Below are positions 47,162-57,427 of a stretch of DNA of 64,000 nucleotides, one piece after another. Position 1 is the stretch's first letter; each line of letters opens with the position of its first letter. Location: the NCBI GenBank assembly GCA_017541205.1, contig JAFXZO010000086.1, positions 89,652 to 153,651 of the forward strand, read 5' to 3'. Source of the stretch: Clostridia bacterium. GTDB lineage: Bacteria; Bacillota; Clostridia; Christensenellales; Aristaeellaceae. The notes beneath the pieces are model-generated. The model was given only the letters and a program-made list of their open reading frames with translations, searched no databases and was not told the DNA's origin. A program made the position numbers and the translations under genes.

Positions 47162-48511
47162 TTACCGCTTCTGACGTTTGGACAGTACGTCGAACAGCAC
47201 AGCCACCAGAAGCACCAGGCCCTTGACGACCTTCTGATAGTTCTGGGGCGTGCTGATCAGGTTCATGCCCTTGTTGATGATGCCCATCAGCGTGGCGCCG
47301 ATGATCATGCCGGATACCTTGCCGATGCCGCCGTAAGCCGACGCGCCGCCGATGAAGCAGGCGGCGATGGCGTCCATTTCGTATCCGTCGCCGGCGTTCG
47401 CCGGGTCGATGCCCTTGTTGTACCCGGCGGCCAGGATGCCCGCGAGACCGGCCAGCAAGCCGATGTTGGCGTAGGCGAACCAATACACGTTCCGGGTCTT
47501 GACGCCGGAAAGGGCCGTTGCCTTTTCGTTGCCGCCCACGGCGTACAGATGGCGGCCGATGGCGGTTTTATTGGTGACATAAGCGTAAATCCCCAGCACC
47601 AGCGACACCCATACCAGCGCCATGGGGAAGCCGCGGTAGAAGCTCATATCCAGGCACACCCACAGGATCAGCAGGGAAATCAGCACCGTGGAGGCCACCT
47701 GGGCCGGAATGGACTGGCTGATGTTCATTTTCTTCTGCACCAGGATCTTGCGGACCTTGAGCGCGACGAATATCAGCGCCACCACGATGCCGATGCACAT
47801 ACAGGTCACGTTGAAATTCTTTACGCCGTTGAAATTGGTGCCGGGCAGCAAGGCCACCCAGAACCCATCCTTGTTCAGCATCGCCGCTTCCACGTTGGGC
47901 AGCAGGTTTTTCATGAAATCCGGAATGTAGCTGGTCTTCGTGACGCCGAAGAACTGCAGGAAATCGGCAAAATCCGCGTTGCCGCGCTGGCCGCCCAGGA
48001 TGGCGCTGGCGATGCCGCGGAAGGCGTACATGCCCGCCAGGGTGGCGATGAACGCCGGCACCCGGATCTTGGCGATCCAGAAGCCCTGGAAAACGCCGAT
48101 GGCCAGGCCGGTGAGCAGCATCACCAGCACCGCCCACCACATATTGATCCCTGCGGACATCATGATGCAGCCGATGCCGCCGGTAAAACACACCACGGAA
48201 CCGACGGACAAATCGATGTTGCCGCCGGTGAGGATGCACAGCAGCATGCCCGCAGCCAGCACGAACACGTACGCGTTCTCGCCGATCAGGTTGGTGATTT
48301 CCTTATTGGAAAGGATCTTCCAATCCGACATGATGCCAAAGGCGATCACCACCGCCACCAGGGCGATGATCATGGTGTACTTTTGAAGAAATTCCCGAAC
48401 CTTCAATCGCTGCATCAGCTCGATGAACTTCTGCCAGGAGGTAAGCTGCCCTCCGGAATCTCCGCCGCCCCCGGCCGGCTGGGCCAGCATCTCTTTATTG
48501 CTCATTCTCAC
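47162..48511 (-). CDS. Monosaccharide ABC transporter permease, first paralogue (MmsB/GguB type)
   Basis: A 449-residue permease with a hydrophilic N-terminal extension (about 1-40, Gly- and Gln-rich) before the helices. Signature segments are [75 protein letters not shown] and [37 protein letters not shown] at 48511 overlaps the ATPase stop (GTGA); ATG at 48505 is the alternative. Compared with the second permease it has an extra loop of about 50 residues in the middle ([20 protein letters not shown]...). Confidence 0.92.
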
Positions 48512-50052
48512 GCACCCCTTCCCGATCTGAGGATCGCCGTCATGATGCTTTCCTGCGTAGCTTCCGCCGCCTTCATTTCACCGATGATCTTCGCCTCGTT
48601 CATAATATAGATGCGGTCGCTCATGCCCAGCACCTCGGGCAGCTCGGAAGAAATCAGCACCACGCACTTGCCCGCCGCGGCCAGATCGTTGATAATGCAG
48701 TAAATTTCATATTTCGCGCCCACGTCGATGCCGCGGGTAGGCTCGTCCAGCAGCAGGATATCGGGCTCTGCGAACATCCACTTGGCAAGCAGCACCTTCT
48801 GCTGGTTGCCGCCGGACAAATTGCCCACCAGCTGCTCCACGGAAGGCGTTTTGATCTTCAGCTTGCCCCGATATTCCTCCGCCGCGGCGTATTCCTTGTC
48901 GCCGTCGATGACGGAATGGCTGGAGATGGCCTCCAGATTGGCCAGGGACGTATTCACCTTGATGGACTGGCTGAGCACCAGGCCGTTGCCCTTGCGGTCC
49001 TCGGTGACATAGGCGATCTTGTGCTTAATGGCGTCCGAAGCGCTTTTGCGCAGGTGAACGTGCTTCCCGTCCAGCTTCAGTTCGCCGGAAAAATTCACGC
49101 CGTAGCTGCGGCCGAAAATGCTCATGGCCAGCTCCGTGCGCCCGGCGCCCATCAGGCCGTATATGCCGACCACCTCGCCCTGGCGGACGTACATGGAAAC
49201 GTCGTCCACAACTTTGCGCTCTGTATAAAGGGGATGGTGCACGGTCCAGTGATTGACCTCCAGCCGGACGTCCCCGATCTTGACGTTTTCGCGCTTGGGG
49301 AAGCGGTTGGTGATCTCGCGGCCCACCATGCCCCGGATGATCCTTTCTTCGCTCACGGGCTCCTTGCCGTGATTGTCAATGGTTTCGATGGTGGCGCCGT
49401 CGCGCACCACGGTGATCTTGTCCGCCACGTAGGATACTTCGTTCAGCTTGTGGGAAATGATGATCATGGTCATTCCCTGCTTCTTGAAGCTGAGCATCAG
49501 ATCCAACAGCGCCCTCGAATCCTCTTCGTTCAGGGAAGAGGTCGGCTCGTCCAGGATCAGCAGCCGCGCCTTCTTGGCCAGCGCCTTGGCGATTTCTACC
49601 AGCTGCTGCTTGCCCGTTCCGATATTTTTGATCTGTACTTTGGAGCTTTCCTTGAGGCCCACCATTCTCAGGTATTTATCGGCCTCCGCGTAGGTCTTGT
49701 TCCAATTGATGGCCAGGCTGTGGCCGCATTCATTGCCCAGGTACATGTTTTCGCCGATGGTCATTTCCGGCACCAGCGCCAGTTCCTGATGAATGATAAC
49801 GATGCCCAGCTTTTCCGAATCCTTGATATTGGAAAACCTGCACACCTTTCCGTCGTAGATGATATCGCCTTCGTATGTGCCGAAAGGATAGATGCCGCTC
49901 AGCACGTTCATCAGCGTGGATTTGCCCGCGCCGTTTTCGCCCACCAGCGCGTGGATCTCCCCCTCTTCTACCTGAAGGTTGACGTTGTCCAGGGCTTTTA
50001 CGCCGGGAAAGGTTTTGGTAATGTTTTTCATTTCCAGCAAAATCTTTGCCAT
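48508..50052 (-). CDS. Monosaccharide ABC transporter ATPase (MmsA/GguA type, double cassette)
   Basis: A 514-residue ATPase with two cassettes. The first has Walker [17 protein letters not shown] and Walker [18 protein letters not shown]. The second has signature [16 protein letters not shown] and Walker [19 protein letters not shown]; its Walker A is altered to [10 protein letters not shown] as usual for RbsA/MglA-type proteins. The sequence [41 protein letters not shown] is the MmsA/GguA opening. It drives the two permeases with the ChvE-like binding protein. Confidence 0.94.
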
Positions 50053-50184: not shown

Positions 50185-51249
50185 TTATTCCGCAACCACG
50201 GGATAGCCGGCGTCGTTCAGTACATAGTAACCGGAATCGATCAGCAGCGCCTGCCAGTTGTCCAGGTTGGCGAACACGGGCTCGCACAGGAAGGAGGGCA
50301 CGGTGATCTTGCCGTTGTTGTAGGTCGTGGTGTCGTTCACGTCGACTTCTTCACCCTTGAAGATCTGGCCGACCATCTTGACGACCTGAGCCGCCAGGGT
50401 ACGGGTATCCTTGAACACGGACATGGCCTGCTTGCCGTCGATCATCTTCGCCATGGTGGCAACGTCGCAGTCCTGGCCGGTGATGATGGGCCATTCGCCG
50501 TCGTAGTTGTCTTCCAGAGCATTGATGACGCCCAGAGCGGTGGAGTCGTTGGAGCACAGCCAGGCATCGATGTTGGAGCCGTCGTCATAGTTGGCCAGGA
50601 TGGCATTGGCGCGGTTCTGGGCGGTCTCAGACTTCCAGCCGGGGGTGGCAACCTTGGCGAATTCGATTTCGCCGGACTTCACGATCAGCTTGCCAGCGTC
50701 CATGTAGGGCTGCAGCACGTCGATCGCGCCCTGATAGAAGTAGCCCGCGTTGTTGTCGCCGGGGTCGCCAGCGGTGATTTCCAGGTTGAAGGGGCCTTCC
50801 GCGTTGTCCAGATCCAGTTCCTTCTTGATGTATTCGCCCTGCACGGTGCCGACCATGTAGTTGTCGAAGGTGGCGTAGTAGGAAACAGCGTCGGATTCCA
50901 TCAGCAGACGGTCATAAGCGATGACCGCAACGCCCTTTTCCTTGGCCAGATCCAGCGCGTTGCCCAGGGCGTCGCCGGTGATGGCGGCGATGATAACGAC
51001 CTTGCAGCCGTTATTGATCATGTTGGTCACCTGGTTCAGCTGCTGCTGCTCGTCGTTGGCGGCATACTGCAGGTCAACTTCATAGCCAGCTTCAATGAAC
51101 ATGGCTTCCATGTAGGAGCCGTCCTGGTTCCAGCGCTGCAGGTCCTTGGTGGGCATCGAAATGCCGACCTTCTCGCCTTCAGCGGAAACCATCGCGCAGG
51201 CGCCCAGCACCAGGCACAGCGCCATCAGGATAGCGACGAACTTTTTCAT
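50185..51249 (-). CDS. Multiple-monosaccharide-binding protein (ChvE-like)
   Basis: A 354-residue type I sugar-binding protein, closest to the ChvE family of glucose/galactose/xylose/arabinose receptors. The signal sequence contains LGAC, a borderline lipobox, followed by AMVSAEGEK. Binding-site segments are PTKDLQRWNQDGSYME, IAYDRLL, DPGDNNA, LCSNDSTALGVINAL, ITGQDCD and NNGKITVPSFLCEPV. It heads the operon with a strong promoter and AAGGAGATG ribosome site. Its mature domain was clearly the source of, or a sister to, the C-terminal half of the fusion protein at 54874-56754. Confidence 0.93.
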   Translation of the reverse strand: MKKFVAILMALCLVLGACAMVSAEGEKVGISMPTKDLQRWNQDGSYMEAMFIEAGYEVDLQYAANDEQQQLNQVTNMINNGCKVVIIAAITGDALGNALDLAKEKGVAVIAYDRLLMESDAVSYYATFDNYMVGTVQGEYIKKELDLDNAEGPFNLEITAGDPGDNNAGYFYQGAIDVLQPYMDAGKLIVKSGEIEFAKVATPGWKSETAQNRANAILANYDDGSNIDAWLCSNDSTALGVINALEDNYDGEWPIITGQDCDVATMAKMIDGKQAMSVFKDTRTLAAQVVKMVGQIFKGEEVDVNDTTTYNNGKITVPSFLCEPVFANLDNWQALLIDSGYYVLNDAGYPVVAE

Positions 51250-51307
51250 AGGACACACATCTCCTTTTTTATTTCCGGCATTGAAAAACCGGACAAGATA
51301 TGGTCAT

Positions 51308-51336: not shown

Positions 51337-51427
51337 GTCCTTTTGACAAATATCGCCAAAAATGGTTGCTTTTTTTCGGTTTTTTATGCACGTAGGATGC
51401 CGTGCGCGCCGGGCCGGTCGGTCTTCG

Positions 51428-51456
51428 TTGCGTTTTTTCTGCCGGGGTGGTATAAT
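51428..51456 (+). promoter_or_regulatory. Promoter of the GH13-like gene
   Basis: TTGCGT at 51428-51433, 17 bp, TATAAT at 51451-51456; GTG start at 51494 with GGGAGGG. Confidence 0.7.
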
Positions 51457-51493
51457 CAGCGCAAGAAAGCCTGCCTCAACGGGAGGGATACGC

Positions 51494-52873
51494 GTGAACA
51501 GAAGCGATTGGAAGATGGAGTTTTCCAGCCGTCTGCGCCGGCGCGAGGATGAGCTCCGCTGGCTGTATCTGGAAGCGTTTTCGGACGATTACTGGGCGTA
51601 TGAATATTTTATCGCCATGCTGTACCGCAGGTGGGATTCGCGGCCCGAGCGCTTCAAGCGTCTGGACCGGGCGCGCGAGGAAGCGCCGCGCTGGTATCTT
51701 TCGCCCGGCTTGATCGGCATGCGGCTCGGCCGCGGCGAAAACTGGGATGCGGATCATATCGCCCGCTGCGGCGTGACCTGCCTTTTCCTTCCGGACGGCG
51801 CGGGCGGCGTTCCCGCGCGCGGGGAAGAGGGCCTTTCCGTATGCCTGCCCTTCCGGCTGGAAAAAGCGTGCGGCGAAAACCCCACCGCCTTCAACGATCT
51901 GACGGACAGCCTGCTGCAGTGCGTCAATCAGGGGGCGGACGCGCTGTGCCTGGAAAACGTGCCTTCGCTTCCAAAGCCGCATCCCGTGCTGCGCATGCTG
52001 CGGCTGGCGTGCGAGACCGTATGCCCCTCCGCGCTGCTTATCGGCGGCGAAGGGGCGGACCCGTCCTGGTTCGGGACGGAGCAAAAGCCGGAATGCCACC
52101 TGCTTTTCGACGGAAAAATGGACGCCGTCCTTTGGCACACGGCCGCGACGCGCGATCTGCGTCTGCTTTCGCATGAACTGGAAAGGCGTTTCTCGCCGCA
52201 CAGGGAGCGCGCTTTCCTTTATTCCCTGCGCGGGCAGGACGGCGTTCGGTGGGATCTGGATTACGGGTTCCTTTTTGGGCTCGGCCAGATGGAAACGCCG
52301 CACAGGCAGTACCTGAACGATTATCTGACCGGGAATTGGCCGGACAGCCCCGCCCGGGGCGAATGGAAGGACGGCCGCCTGCGCGGCTCCGTTTCATCCC
52401 TGTGCGGCCTTAAAGCAGCCCGGGAGACGGGCGATCCCGAAGCGGCGGAAAAGGCCGTGCGCCTGCACCTTCTGCTGCACGCCCTGCTGTATACGCTCGG
52501 AGGGGCGCCCGTTTTGCAAAGCGGCGATGAAAGCGCGCGGGATACGGGCGAAACATGGGCAGAACCGGACGCGGCGGGGCGGCGGGTCTATTCCGCGATC
52601 CAAAGGATGCACGCCGTGCGCGCCGAAAACCCCGCCTTTTCCGCCCGCGCCGACGCCTGGCTGTGGGATACGGAAAACGAAGCGGTGCTCGGCATCGGCC
52701 GGCGCACCGCGAACGAACAGCTCCTTGCGCTGTTCAATTTTTCCGATGAGACCCAGACCGCCTGGACGCTGGACCCCAACGATTATCAGAACCTGGTGAC
52801 CGGCGAAAGGACGGACGGCGGCTCCGTGCTGCTGCCGCCGGGCGAATTCCGGTGGCTGCTGCGCCGCTGCTGA
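51494..52873 (+). CDS. Amylosucrase-like GH13 protein with degraded catalytic motifs
   Basis: A 459-residue protein that follows the amylosucrase-type GH13 plan: helical N-terminus (WLYLEAFSDDYWAYEYFIAMLYRRWDSRPERFKRLD), then EEAPRWYLSPGLIGMRLG and a barrel strand GVTCLFLPDG, and a C-terminal beta domain (NEQLLALFNFSDETQTAWTL). True members have over 550 residues. The region between strand 1 and the nucleophile strand is much shortened. The nucleophile strand reads GADALCLENV instead of xxxLRMDAV, and the HDD motif region reads RGQDGVRWD. The enzyme is therefore probably inactive or changed in function. A GTG start with GGGAGGG, cytosolic. It is divergent from the sugar transporter operon, so it may have a sensing role. 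Confidence 0.75.
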   Translation: MNRSDWKMEFSSRLRRREDELRWLYLEAFSDDYWAYEYFIAMLYRRWDSRPERFKRLDRAREEAPRWYLSPGLIGMRLGRGENWDADHIARCGVTCLFLPDGAGGVPARGEEGLSVCLPFRLEKACGENPTAFNDLTDSLLQCVNQGADALCLENVPSLPKPHPVLRMLRLACETVCPSALLIGGEGADPSWFGTEQKPECHLLFDGKMDAVLWHTAATRDLRLLSHELERRFSPHRERAFLYSLRGQDGVRWDLDYGFLFGLGQMETPHRQYLNDYLTGNWPDSPARGEWKDGRLRGSVSSLCGLKAARETGDPEAAEKAVRLHLLLHALLYTLGGAPVLQSGDESARDTGETWAEPDAAGRRVYSAIQRMHAVRAENPAFSARADAWLWDTENEAVLGIGRRTANEQLLALFNFSDETQTAWTLDPNDYQNLVTGERTDGGSVLLPPGEFRWLLRRC

Positions 52874-54386: not shown

Positions 54387-54851
54387 GTGATACGGATGGA
54401 TTACGCGCTTTTGAACGCGCAAATGGAAGCCATCGCGCAGGAGGAAGGCTGGTTCGCGGCGCTGATGGCGAACGCGTCCGCGCTGCTGTGGGAAACGCTG
54501 GACAGGATCAATTGGGCGGGGTTTTACATCGCGCGGGACGGAGGGCTGACCCTCGGGCCCTTCCAGGGAAAGACGGCCTGCATCCATATCGCCCGCGGCA
54601 AGGGCGTGTGCGGCACGGCGCTGAAGGAAAACCGCACCGTGCTGGTGCCGGACGTGCACGCGTTTCCCGGGCACATCGCCTGCGACAGCGTTTCCCGGTC
54701 GGAGATCGTGGTGCCGCTGCGGGACGAAAACGGGCGGGCCGTGGCGGTGCTGGATATCGACAGCCCGGAGCTCGCCCGCTTCGACGCGGAGGATCAAAAG
54801 GGGCTGGAGCAGTTTGCCCGGATTTTGGAAAAAGCGCTGAAAGGCCTGTGA
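54387..54851 (+). CDS. msrC: Free methionine-(R)-sulfoxide reductase (GAF type)
   Basis: A 154-residue GAF-domain enzyme of the YebR/fRMsr family that reduces free methionine-R-sulfoxide. The three catalytic-region cysteines are C65, C75 and C99 (GKTACIHIARGKGVCGTA...HIACDSVSRSEIVVPL). Their spacing of +10 and +24 equals that of E. coli MsrC (84, 94, 118). A GTG start at 54387 fits AAAGGAG; ATG at 54396 is too far from it. Its natural partner msrA lies 2.1 kb downstream, separated by the inserted fusion gene, and a copy of this gene's 3' end remains in front of msrA. Confidence 0.95.
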   Translation: MIRMDYALLNAQMEAIAQEEGWFAALMANASALLWETLDRINWAGFYIARDGGLTLGPFQGKTACIHIARGKGVCGTALKENRTVLVPDVHAFPGHIACDSVSRSEIVVPLRDENGRAVAVLDIDSPELARFDAEDQKGLEQFARILEKALKGL

Positions 54852-54866
54852 ACAGCGGAAAAGACG
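54767..54866 (+). repeat. Direct repeat, left copy (msrC 3' end plus msrA-start remnant)
   Basis: One hundred bp that match 56866-56965 without gaps and with about 14 mismatches. It covers the last 28 codons of msrC, its stop, and GGAAAAGACG, which in the right copy belongs to the start of msrA. Confidence 0.85.
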
Positions 54867-54873
54867 GTGGATC

Positions 54874-56754
54874 TTAACGCAGCTGATCGGCGGAGTAATA
54901 GCCGGTTTCGATCAGCAGTTCCTCATAGTTTTCAGCACTGCCGATCACGGGCGCGCACAGGAAGGAGGGCACGGTGATCTTTCCGTTGTTAACGGTCTCG
55001 GTGTCATTCACGTCGACTTCTTCGCCGCTGAAGATCTGGCCCGCCATCCTGAAGGCCTGGGCAACCAGGATACGGGTATCCTTGAACACGGACATGGCCT
55101 GCCTGCCTTCGATCATCTTCCTGACGTTGAGGAGGTCGCAGTCCTGGCCGGTGATGACGGGCCAAGCGCCGCGATAGCTTTCTTCCAGCGCGCTGATGAC
55201 GCCCAGGGCGGTGGAGTCGTTGGAGCAGAGCCAGGCGTCGATGCCGGAGCCGTTGGCATAAAATGCGGACAGGATGGAGCTGGCGCGGTCCTGGGCAACC
55301 TGGGGCCTCCACGTGGGGGTAGCAACGTCGGAAAAATCGAGCTGGCCGGACTTGACGACGAGCTTGCCCGCTTGGATGTAGGGTTCCAGCACGTCCATCG
55401 CGCCGCGGTAAAAGGTTCTGGCGTTGTTGTCATTGGGGTCGCCGGCGGTGATTTCCATGCAGAAGGGGCCTTCCGCATGATCCAGGTCCAAAGCGTCTTT
55501 GATGTAGGCGCCCTGCACGGCGCCGACCAGGTAGTTGTCGAAGGTGACATAGTAAGAAACAGCGTCGGATTCCGTCAGCAGGCGGTCATAAGCGATGACC
55601 GCAACGCCCTTTTCCTTGGCCAGCTCCAGAGCGGGGCCCAGGGAGGAACCTTCAACGGCGGCGATGATAACGACCTTGCAGCCGTTGTTTATCATGTTGG
55701 CCACCTGGTTCAGCTGCTGCTGCACGTCGTTGTCGGCATACCGCAGGTCAACCGCGCAGCCGGCTTCGGTGAACATGGATTCCATATAGGAGCCGTCCAG
55801 ATGCCAGCGCTGGAGGGACTTGGTGGGCAGGGATACGCCGACTTTCCTGCTTTCAAAGGAAGCGGCCGCGCCGCTGCTTCCATCTGCCTTCGCCGCTTCT
55901 TGCGCCTGGAGGGCGGAGCGGGCCTCTTTTTCCTCCGGGGCCCGGAGCGCTTCGCCCTTCGCCTGGCTCAGCGCGGCAGCGACGGCTTCCTTCACGGCGA
56001 CGGAGGTTATGGTCGCGCCGGACATGCCGTCCACGGCGTCCGCGTCGGCCTGTCCCACGCAGGCTTCCGCCAGCAGGGGGAGGGCCGCGCCGCCCAGCCC
56101 GGGCGTTTCGTTATCGCCGGTGATTTCGATGGCGGTGATGGCGTTTTCATCGACCGTCAGCACCACCTTGATTTCGCCCCCAAAGCCCTGCGCGGCGGCT
56201 TCATAGGTGCCGGGAAGAAAAATGCCGGGAACTGCGGCTTCTTCGGCAGCCTGCGCATTGCGGGCCTTTTCTTCCTCCAGGGCCCGGAGCGCTTCCTCCA
56301 ATTGCTGGCGCAGGGCCTCGTTTTCCGCGGCCAAAATGTCCTGCGCGCTGGCGACCTGCACCTGAAAGGCTGAGAAAGTCAAGCCGTCCACCAGATTTTC
56401 ATTGATGTCGGCTGCCTGCTCCACAAGGATCTGGATCTCGTATACGCCGCCCGGGGCGTTCGGCCGTACGGTAAAGGATACCGGCACGAATTCCCCGACC
56501 GGGATGCCCAGGATATTGAGACTGATAATGGGCGCGTCGTTCTGCACATTGCTGGAGGGGATCAATTCAAATACGTCGTGGTCGTAACGCAGCTTCAGCG
56601 TCGCGCCGACCGCGCGATTCGGGTTCTCCGTTACGGTGAACACCAATTCAAACGTATCCCCGGGCTGATAGGAGGGGATCTCCTCGCCCAGCGCGAAGGA
56701 AGGAACGAGCAGCATCAGCGCAAGCAGCAGCGCGGCGCATTTTTTGTGGAACAC
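54874..56754 (-). CDS. Exported fusion: cohesin-like domain + coiled coil + FMN-binding domain + ChvE-type sugar-binding domain
   Basis: A 626-residue exported protein. The order is: signal peptide (1-23); cohesin-like beta domain (about 27-135; PGDTFELVFTVTENPNRAVG, LKLRYDHDVFEL); coiled coil (about 137-172); FMN_bind domain (about 176-263); Glu/Ala linker (264-300); sugar-binding domain (304-626). The FMN_bind part carries DGMSGATITS, the ApbE flavinylation motif, with the acceptor Thr at 248. The binding domain is by eye about two-thirds identical to the ChvE-like protein at 50185-51249 and keeps QRW, CSNDSTALG, ITGQDCD and NNGKITVPSFLC. The linkers before and after the FMN domain are similar (EALRALEEEKARNAQAAEEA; EALRAPEEKEARSALQAQEA). 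I know of no described protein with this layout. It has its own promoter and is flanked by direct repeats. No permease or apbE gene is adjacent. Confidence 0.9.
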   Translation of the reverse strand: MFHKKCAALLLALMLLVPSFALGEEIPSYQPGDTFELVFTVTENPNRAVGATLKLRYDHDVFELIPSSNVQNDAPIISLNILGIPVGEFVPVSFTVRPNAPGGVYEIQILVEQAADINENLVDGLTFSAFQVQVASAQDILAAENEALRQQLEEALRALEEEKARNAQAAEEAAVPGIFLPGTYEAAAQGFGGEIKVVLTVDENAITAIEITGDNETPGLGGAALPLLAEACVGQADADAVDGMSGATITSVAVKEAVAAALSQAKGEALRAPEEKEARSALQAQEAAKADGSSGAAASFESRKVGVSLPTKSLQRWHLDGSYMESMFTEAGCAVDLRYADNDVQQQLNQVANMINNGCKVVIIAAVEGSSLGPALELAKEKGVAVIAYDRLLTESDAVSYYVTFDNYLVGAVQGAYIKDALDLDHAEGPFCMEITAGDPNDNNARTFYRGAMDVLEPYIQAGKLVVKSGQLDFSDVATPTWRPQVAQDRASSILSAFYANGSGIDAWLCSNDSTALGVISALEESYRGAWPVITGQDCDLLNVRKMIEGRQAMSVFKDTRILVAQAFRMAGQIFSGEEVDVNDTETVNNGKITVPSFLCAPVIGSAENYEELLIETGYYSADQLR

Positions 56755-56833
56755 GCAGGAAGCCTCCTTTCAGGGAAGGAAAAACGGATGTTTTCAGCGG
56801 TTCGCCGCAGTTTGTATTATAGAGACCTCATCA

Positions 56834-56862
56834 ATTATGGCATACGCGCCCTGGGCTGTCAA
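56834..56862 (-). promoter_or_regulatory. Promoter of the FMN/sugar-binding fusion gene
   Basis: On the minus strand TTGACA (56862-56857), 17 bp, CATAAT (56839-56834). The -35 ends 3 bp from the right direct repeat, so the insert carries a complete transcription unit. Confidence 0.75.
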
Positions 56863-56865
56863 TAA

Positions 56866-56950
56866 GGAACTTTCCAGCTTTGACGCGGGGGATCAAAAGG
56901 GGCTGGAGCGGTTTGCCGGGATCTTGGAAAAAGCGATGAAAGGACTGTGA
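56866..56950 (+). pseudogene. 3' fragment of msrC preceding msrA
   Basis: In frame this reads ELSSFDAGDQKGLERFAGILEKAMKGL and stop. It is the C-terminal 27-28 residues of MsrC with a few changes, many DNA differences being at third positions. There is no start or GAF core, so it is a leftover of an msrC copy. Its end supplies the AAAGGA ribosome site of msrA. Confidence 0.85.
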
Positions 56951-56965
56951 GCTGTGGAAAAGACG
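56866..56965 (+). repeat. Direct repeat, right copy
   Basis: Partner of 54767-54866 (offset exactly 2,099 bp, no gaps, about 86% identical). It includes the first four codons of msrA. Confidence 0.85.
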
Positions 56966-57427
56966 ATTTATCTGGCGGGCGGCTGCTTCTGGGGCTGCCA
57001 AAAGTATTTTGATCTGATGGACGGCGTATTGGAAACCGAGGTCGGCTACGCCAACGGGCCGACCCCCAACCCGACCTACGAGGAGGTCAAGCGCCACGCG
57101 GGGCACGCGGAAACGGTCAGGATCCGATATGAATCGGACACGCTGCCGCTCAAAACCCTGCTTGAAAAGTATTTCCTGGTGATCGATCCCACGGCGGTGA
57201 ACCGCCAGGGCGAGGACCACGGCATCCAGTACCGCACGGGGATCTATTGCCTCGATCCCGAGGACTTTCCCGTTGCCCGGCAGGCGCTCGACGCCCTCGC
57301 CGCGCAGTATGAAAAGCCTCTGGCCGTGGAGCTGGAGCCCTTGCGGAATTTTTACCCGGCGGAGGAATACCATCAGAAATACCTGGAAAAACACCCGGAC
57401 GGCTATTGCCATATCCACTTTGACTGA
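56954..57427 (+). CDS. msrA: Peptide methionine-(S)-sulfoxide reductase MsrA
   Basis: A 157-residue enzyme that reduces the S-epimer of methionine sulfoxide in proteins. The catalytic cysteine is C11 in AGGCFWGCQKYFD; the substrate-binding Glu/Tyr set (EVGYANG, GHAETVRI, GIYC) and YHQKYLEKHPDGYCHI are intact. It starts with GTG three bases after the stop of the msrC fragment, preserving what seems to be the original msrC-msrA junction. A weak TATTAT at 56815-56820 could give it a promoter now that it is cut off from the msrC promoter. Confidence 0.96.
   Translation: MEKTIYLAGGCFWGCQKYFDLMDGVLETEVGYANGPTPNPTYEEVKRHAGHAETVRIRYESDTLPLKTLLEKYFLVIDPTAVNRQGEDHGIQYRTGIYCLDPEDFPVARQALDALAAQYEKPLAVELEPLRNFYPAEEYHQKYLEKHPDGYCHIHFD

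Follow-up and report, generated by a model that had tools for sequence, protein, structure and literature searches.

A candidate surface protein from an uncultured Clostridia lineage that joins a cohesin-like module, an FMN_bind domain and a ChvE-type sugar-binding domain

The window, a 64,000-nucleotide stretch of contig JAFXZO010000086.1 from a Clostridia bacterium, carries a gene for a 626-residue protein in which a signal peptide, a divergent cohesin-like module, an FMN_bind domain and a ChvE-type monosaccharide-binding domain follow one another in one chain. There is a high probability that these parts and their order are real. We regard it as an evenly balanced proposition that the product is a domain-shuffled exported surface protein, which would be docked on a dockerin and hold one covalent flavin and one sugar site. 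Modular surface tethering is our first reading because the gene belongs to a family with exchangeable payloads, because related modules and dockerins share genomes and neighboring genes, and because the gene sits as an insertion between fRMsr and msrA.

Results

One open frame encodes a putative signal peptide and three domains

The fusion gene (54874..56754, minus strand, as are all of its parts) starts with GTG, ends with TAA and is open throughout. This 626-residue frame, together with Pfam and PDB matches, confirms the single chain with FMN_bind, SGAT and a full ChvE-type domain that the initial annotation had claimed. The export that it proposed is supported by a putative signal peptide, read by eye, at residues 1-23 (56686..56754); no lipobox was seen there, and the paralogue C67a starts similarly.

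Residues 25-136 form the cohesin-like module (56347..56682), which was assigned from a sub-threshold Pfam match, wider profiles and gene neighbors. Linker 1 follows at residues 137-175 (56230..56346), and its DNA at 56258-56340 is found in the gene's own family only. A low-confidence predicted model places a helix at residues 137-173; structure predictions were poor, with a mean pLDDT of 40.7 for the cohesin-like module alone and 43.6 for the whole chain. The FMN_bind domain, identified by Pfam, PDB alignment and motif, spans residues 176-263 (55966..56229). Linker 2 (residues about 261-288; 55892..55974) is a repeat of linker 1, with 71% identity over 83 nt in a DNA comparison and a core (55918-55953) that reaches 92% over 36 nt. 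The ChvE-type domain fills residues 304-626 (54877..55845). A promoter-like site on the same strand, TTGACA-17-CATAAT with a TG (56834..56862), is an 11/12 match and lies inside a stretch similar to paralogue C9.

The flavin domain retains its attachment motif and pocket

The assignment of residues 176-263 as FMN_bind, on which the initial annotation had staked its reading, held up: FMN_bind (PF04205) matches residues 190-263 with an E value of 1.6e-17 and 64.3 bits, against a Pfam cut-off of 22. Pfam finds one such domain in the protein, and multi-flavinylated proteins have more than one. The flavinylation motif was likewise read correctly as intact, since SGAT occupies residues 245-248, which makes Thr248 (codon 56011-56013) the acceptor residue. 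By sequence, the best PDB match of the domain is CbFMN4 domain 1 (8p2b; E 5.3e-12). According to an excerpt of PMC10339131, the flavin pocket in the crystal structure of CbFMN4-D1 is made by Tyr11, Thr37, Leu40, Thr67 and Ser69. These residues align in the fusion protein to Phe, Thr, Leu, Thr248 and Thr, so that three of the five are identical and Tyr11 and Ser69 are exchanged for Phe and Thr. Loss of the flavin site was considered and is ruled out by the retained SGAT and pocket residues.

A search for apbE elsewhere in the genome, which had been proposed as a check, gave one match (G000:C101:3818-4672, where G000 is the genome of the window). Beside it are genes for a Proton_antipo_M protein and for another protein that contains two to three FMN_bind stretches. 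Contig C32 of the same genome carries RnfC, NQR2/RnfD and Rnf-Nqr family genes as well as another FMN_bind protein, and the genome has 12 FMN_bind matches. Judged from sequence, covalent flavinylation of the fusion protein at Thr248 is likely.

The FMN domain is closest to FMN_bind domains of congeners' fumarate-reductase-like exoproteins (best matches, 60-77% identity), with which it also groups in a tree with modest support; the architecture of these relatives was established for one, L053. Two other FMN_bind proteins of the genome were observed in passing. A frame running off contig C80 (L047:5936-7048, plus strand) combines FMN_bind with a MacB-type periplasmic core domain, and contig C1 encodes a protein that looks exported and joins FMN_bind to a rhodanese domain (L049:2065-3399, minus strand).

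The sugar-binding domain is complete and lies near a Ggu-type transporter

Peripla_BP_4 (PF13407) covers residues 305-579 over its entire profile (positions 1-258 of 258; E 6.5e-54, 183.6 bits, cut-off 35.1), and solved ChvE-family proteins can be aligned with the C-terminal domain over its whole length (4ys6, E 2.9e-129; ChvE 3urm, E 1.5e-89). ChvE (NF040907) is the best NCBIfam family both for the fusion and for a stand-alone gene in the window, with scores of 402.9 and 420.2 that both fall below the equivalog cut-off of 460. The fused domain would bind a monosaccharide as its ligand.

The stand-alone ChvE-type binding protein (50185..51258, minus strand) was assigned by Pfam, NCBIfam and homologue comparison. 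It is accompanied by a GguA-type ABC ATPase (48508..50052, minus strand; 813.7 bits, cut-off 810) and a GguB-type permease (47162..48511, minus strand; 387.8 bits, below the cut-off of 450). The three genes lie 3.6-7.7 kb from the fusion gene on the same strand, the GguA- and GguB-type genes at 4.8-7.7 kb. Adjoining the ChvE gene is a 503-aa frame (51362-52873, plus strand) with only a weak match to a beta-galactosidase C-terminal domain; its homologues are 615 aa long and lie near ChvE in L102 and L105. Elsewhere, a ChvE-like match (G342:C3:20498-21487, minus strand) sits in a frame whose 505 aa exceed the length of most other matches.

These neighbors, together with the complete ChvE-type domain and its mostly retained motifs, are what would be expected of an accessory binding protein of the nearby Ggu-type ABC transporter, in which the ChvE domain hands sugar to GguA/GguB, the N-terminal parts serve as an anchor and the FMN domain is carried along passively. 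A precedent may exist in ANME archaea, for which an excerpt of PMC9012536 mentions dockerin-containing ABC binding proteins. We nevertheless find this account doubtful, because the SGAT motif and flavin pocket are intact, which is unexpected for a passive spacer, and because the transporter loci of the ten relatives examined have only stand-alone ChvE genes.

The fused sugar domain has 67-74% identity with its homologues in the comparison and is changed at 17 of the 157 positions that are invariant in 11 homologues. Three of the changed positions (313, 318 and 319) surround the RW motif and another, 441, belongs to the DP(G/N)DNN motif; we take both motifs to be located at the sugar. In a control with 162 positions invariant in 10 relatives, 19 are changed in the fused domain versus 5 in the stand-alone gene. 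This faster change fits relaxed constraint and a new specificity equally well. The dN/dS ratio is 0.47 for the fused sugar domain versus the stand-alone ChvE gene, 0.33 for module plus linker versus C67a, 0.28 for the module versus C9 and 0.33 for the FMN domain versus G007, and most of this signal may be older than the fusion. Descent of the fused domain from the stand-alone gene was considered. The dS between them is the lowest at 0.39, but it is 0.43 against L105 of congener G021, and with these values and a weakly supported tree we do not claim that origin.

Paralogues of the N-terminal module carry different payloads

Searched with a profile built from the N-terminal module (A1), its own genome gives nine modules, spread over eight genes, and the other 99 genomes give only two more, in G021 and G025. 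Five family genes carry BspA-type LRR (LRR_5) payloads, one on contig C9 and four in tandem on contig C67 (L041:3614-9003, minus strand), where each of the four consists of a cohesin-like module, the linker and the repeats. One C67 family gene is cut by the contig end; its payload by eye resembles what we presume to be a 5'-nucleotidase C-terminal motif, and the family gene on C94 carries two modules.

At the DNA level, residues 1-164 of the fusion gene match C67a with 88.6% identity. Of the six paralogues compared, five lose similarity at codon 164/165: besides C67a these are C9, C67b, C67c and C67e, whose matches reach residue 164 or 165, with a gap ahead of the linker in three of the four. 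The match to C67d, the sixth paralogue, stops at residue 107. The C94 paralogue, which is outside this set of six, had no DNA match to the fusion gene when 14 loci of the genome were compared. The linker stands out from the sequence ahead of it: residues 139-164 are identical to C67a at 77 of 78 nt, versus 358 of 414 for residues 1-138 (p 0.0007, Fisher's test, with a boundary picked after the data were seen). Searching the genome with the linker DNA gives eight matches, all within the module family, two of which lie in the fusion gene and flank its FMN domain. From the shared breakpoint at codon 164/165, the confinement of linker DNA to the family and the near-identical linker of C67a, we infer that payloads were joined at the linker.

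The same similarities could in principle mislead an assembler, and the genome (3.0 Mb, 84.9% complete) is a metagenome-type assembly in 121 contigs. The linker and C67a have an exact run of 59 nt in common, and the contig of C67a ends 281 nt past the shared stretch. However, all linker copies found sit in module genes, so a wrong join at linker 1 would merely exchange one cohesin-like module for another, and at the second linker just 36 nt are shared at 92%. When 14 loci of the genome and the ChvE region were compared as DNA, the longest matches had identities of 88.6% and 80.8%; the DNA search of the whole assembly used the linker as its only query, and a protein search of the whole assembly with residues 24-366 found other copies at no more than 72%. 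An assembly chimera is therefore extremely improbable.

The gene looks inserted between fRMsr and msrA

The fusion gene lies between two genes that point the opposite way. One encodes a free methionine-R-sulfoxide reductase-like GAF protein of the YebR family (fRMsr; 54387..54851, plus strand; Pfam), and the other is msrA, for peptide methionine-S-sulfoxide reductase (56954..57427, plus strand; Pfam and NCBIfam). The fRMsr/msrA junction is present twice, in 108-nt direct repeats that are 84% identical. The left copy (54767..54874) holds the fRMsr 3' end and the first bases of msrA, and the right copy (56866..56973) holds a remnant of the fRMsr 3' end and the msrA start. In congeners, MsrA is next to an fRMsr-like gene or in the same frame at 18 of 19 loci; the remaining one, L096, stops 56 nt past fRMsr, which we take as a contig end. 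The unit between the repeats (54875-56865) spans from the strong promoter-like site through the stop codon; position 56865 is also where similarity to paralogue C9 begins. The fusion gene thus looks like a promoter-to-stop unit that was inserted between fRMsr and msrA, which would have occurred by recombination or by duplication with replacement. At L084, L086, L089, L090 and L093, the fRMsr-like and MsrA parts are apparently in one frame and may form a bifunctional methionine sulfoxide reductase.

The full domain order occurs in one of the genomes searched

A search of related genomes for the same order, also proposed in the initial annotation, found no second copy. The full order occurs in its own genome only among 100 relatives, among 300 genomes of the family (best 7 candidates per genome) and among 396 genomes of the order (best 4 candidates per genome), sets that overlap and that each include the genome itself. 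In the set of 396, 34 genomes have matches at E up to 1e-40 among the best 4 candidates per genome, and only the match in the window spans the FMN domain. A genome-contig database scan with the fusion confirmed one locus, which has the FMN domain only, in a database from which records near the source genome may be left out; a viral-contig scan gave no match. Congener G021 encodes a 492-aa protein with a cohesin-like module, FMN_bind (E 2.1e-7, with TGAT) and SH3_3, and without a sugar domain (L112:2873-4351, contig C179, minus strand). Its FMN domain is distant from that of the window in the tree, so that module and FMN_bind seem to have met separately in the two genomes.

The initial annotation knew of no described protein that joins FMN_bind and a ChvE-type domain, which agrees with our literature searches, in which the titles and abstract starts listed gave no such protein. 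The sugar and binding-protein terms looked for are absent from the main texts of PMC8238504 and PMC11334425.

Occurrence in one genome, the faster change of the fused sugar domain and a still visible insertion scar could also mark a young chimera, in which payload shuffling produced a neutral fusion that has no integrated function and still folds in parts. This is unlikely in our view. A neutral chimera sits poorly with 626 codons that are open throughout, with motifs still intact, with a promoter-like site and with a dN/dS below 0.5 in each part, and a congener has a second cohesin-like plus FMN_bind protein.

The module is probably a cohesin, and related modules adjoin dockerin genes

The cohesin-like label given initially is weak as a single-sequence match and is backed by wider profiles and gene neighbors. 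Pfam Cohesin (PF00963) matches residues 30-71 at E 0.0032, with 18.1 bits in the whole protein and 23.0 for the module alone, under the cut-off of 24.1. All nine A1 members of the genome match this family at E up to 1, none of them over the cut-off, and A1 reaches a cohesin in the PDB at E 0.26 only. Of the related modules, those in L113, L147 and L157 pass the same cut-off (30.9, 33.9 and 24.5 bits), and that in L153 fails (18.4). The wider profile A2, which includes members passing Pfam Cohesin and four modules found via their dockerin neighbors, matches 1aoh at E 1.2e-5 and 3kcp at E 1.8e-5. Among its PDB matches at E up to 1, 22 of 31 sequences are named cohesin, scaffoldin or anchoring protein.

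The modules of G021 and G025 were found by A1 without the use of dockerins. Once they are added to A1, matches appear next to dockerin genes in L147, L150 and L153, and weaker ones in L157 and L156, which is 5 of 12 dockerin places examined (the dockerin-positive genomes of the family among the 100 except G000 and G025, plus G062 and G079). A2 modules occur in 12 of 100 genomes, the source genome included, and Dockerin_1 is present in 11 of these 12 versus 11 of the 88 without a module (Fisher p 5e-8, a statistic that counts related genomes as independent). When the four genomes whose modules entered A2 via dockerins are left out, the counts are 7 of 8 versus 11 of 88 (p 2e-5), and for A1 genomes only they are 2 of 3 versus 20 of 97 (p 0.12). 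Module and dockerin are in neighboring genes in nine of the twelve (G000, G002, G008, G025, G041, G046, G062, G070 and G079; G070 by coordinates only and G046 by frame lengths). The nearest pair in G096 is 2.2 kb apart, the two are on different contigs in G001, and a Dockerin_1 search of G021, which has a module, found none. The N-terminal module is probably a divergent cohesin, and docking of the fusion protein through it appears likely. We also observed a recurrent pair in which a gene for a cohesin-like protein lies 13-39 nt behind that of a dockerin protein (L113:1396-5170, plus strand, on contig C8 of G025, and L147, L150, L153 and L157); the dockerin protein of the G025 pair carries an M23 peptidase.

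The sole dockerin match of the source genome (C94:2899-3060) ends a Ser/Thr kinase with Pkinase and ADP_ribosyl_GH domains, which by eye has a transmembrane stretch. The kinase gene comes directly after the two-module gene (L043:2-4934, minus strand, contig C94; dockerin end, L052). There is thus one dockerin match for nine modules in an assembly of the completeness given above, and the fusion protein may dock on this kinase. A cellulosome proper was considered and is ruled out, as the genome has one dockerin match and no multi-cohesin scaffoldin; the family proteins hold one module each, and two in one case.

The kinase raises two further readings. The fusion could be a redox-coupled sugar sensor, in which sugar closes the ChvE domain and thereby alters electron exchange at the FMN or sends a signal to the dockerin-bearing kinase. 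The presence of all three parts in a single chain and the position of the only dockerin found, on a kinase that adjoins a two-module protein, are consistent with such coupling, but the domains are separated by linkers and the architecture is a single example, and we rate a sensor as quite unlikely. More broadly, the locus could belong to an inverted cellulosome for sensing. Here the transmembrane Ser/Thr kinase with its ADP-ribosylglycohydrolase domain would show a dockerin outside, on which interchangeable, linker-recombined, cohesin-tagged receptors dock; one of these would be a flavinylated receptor for sugar, and the kinase would read both its redox state and its ligand state. We attach a correspondingly small probability to this arrangement.

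Discussion

Taken together, these observations lead us to favor a tethered surface protein, and the following steps outline how it might arise and work. Payloads would have been joined at the linker and the finished unit then inserted between fRMsr and msrA. The product would be secreted through its signal peptide, and its divergent cohesin would dock on an extracellular dockerin, which in the source genome may be the tail of the membrane Ser/Thr kinase; further dockerins are perhaps missing from the assembly. The helical linker would keep the payload away from the dock. ApbE, whose gene is present, would attach FMN to Thr248, where motif and pocket residues are retained, and the resulting one-flavin carrier could take electrons from the Rnf complex and the multi-flavin proteins of the cell. 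The ChvE-type domain, by its homology and motifs, would bind a monosaccharide. Its most likely role would be to capture sugar from a tethered position and to hold a flavin in that surface complex. Redox-sugar coupling within the chain, which the initial annotation proposed beside a sugar receptor that feeds electrons or signals to the envelope, we put forward as a hypothesis.

If this model is correct, sugar-binding proteins of the ABC type can carry a covalent flavin and be docked in surface complexes, and sugar capture can be physically linked to extracytosolic electron transfer. The locus may also show how exoproteins are built from modules in an uncultured lineage, with a common tag and linker, an exchangeable payload and insertion as a promoter-to-stop unit. 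Because the gene looks as if it was built from spare parts and then inserted, it may illustrate the way in which bacteria put together new surface machines. The link between cohesin, dockerin and kinase opens a direct binding test.

Several known systems come close to the fusion protein. The binding protein of the ChvE/Ggu multiple-monosaccharide ABC transporter (NF040907; 3urm) is homologous over its full length to residues 305-625, whereas the fusion carries two further modules, scores 402.9 against the equivalog cut-off of 460 and shows no visible lipobox. Flavinylated fumarate-reductase-like exoproteins, which combine FMN_bind with FAD_binding_2 in the excerpt of PMC8238504, share the exported type and a similar FMN_bind domain, but the fusion has a sugar-binding domain in place of the reductase. 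The multi-flavinylated secreted proteins SaFMN3 and CbFMN4 (PDB 8p2b), as far as the excerpt of PMC10339131 describes them, are alike in FMN_bind domain and pocket; in the fusion, a single FMN domain is flanked on both sides by other domains. Finally, in non-cellulosomal cohesin/dockerin proteins such as the ANME ABC binding proteins, as presented in the excerpt of PMC9012536, a binding protein also holds one half of the pair. There it is the dockerin, whereas the fusion holds the cohesin-like half together with a flavin domain, and the dockerin is found on a membrane kinase.
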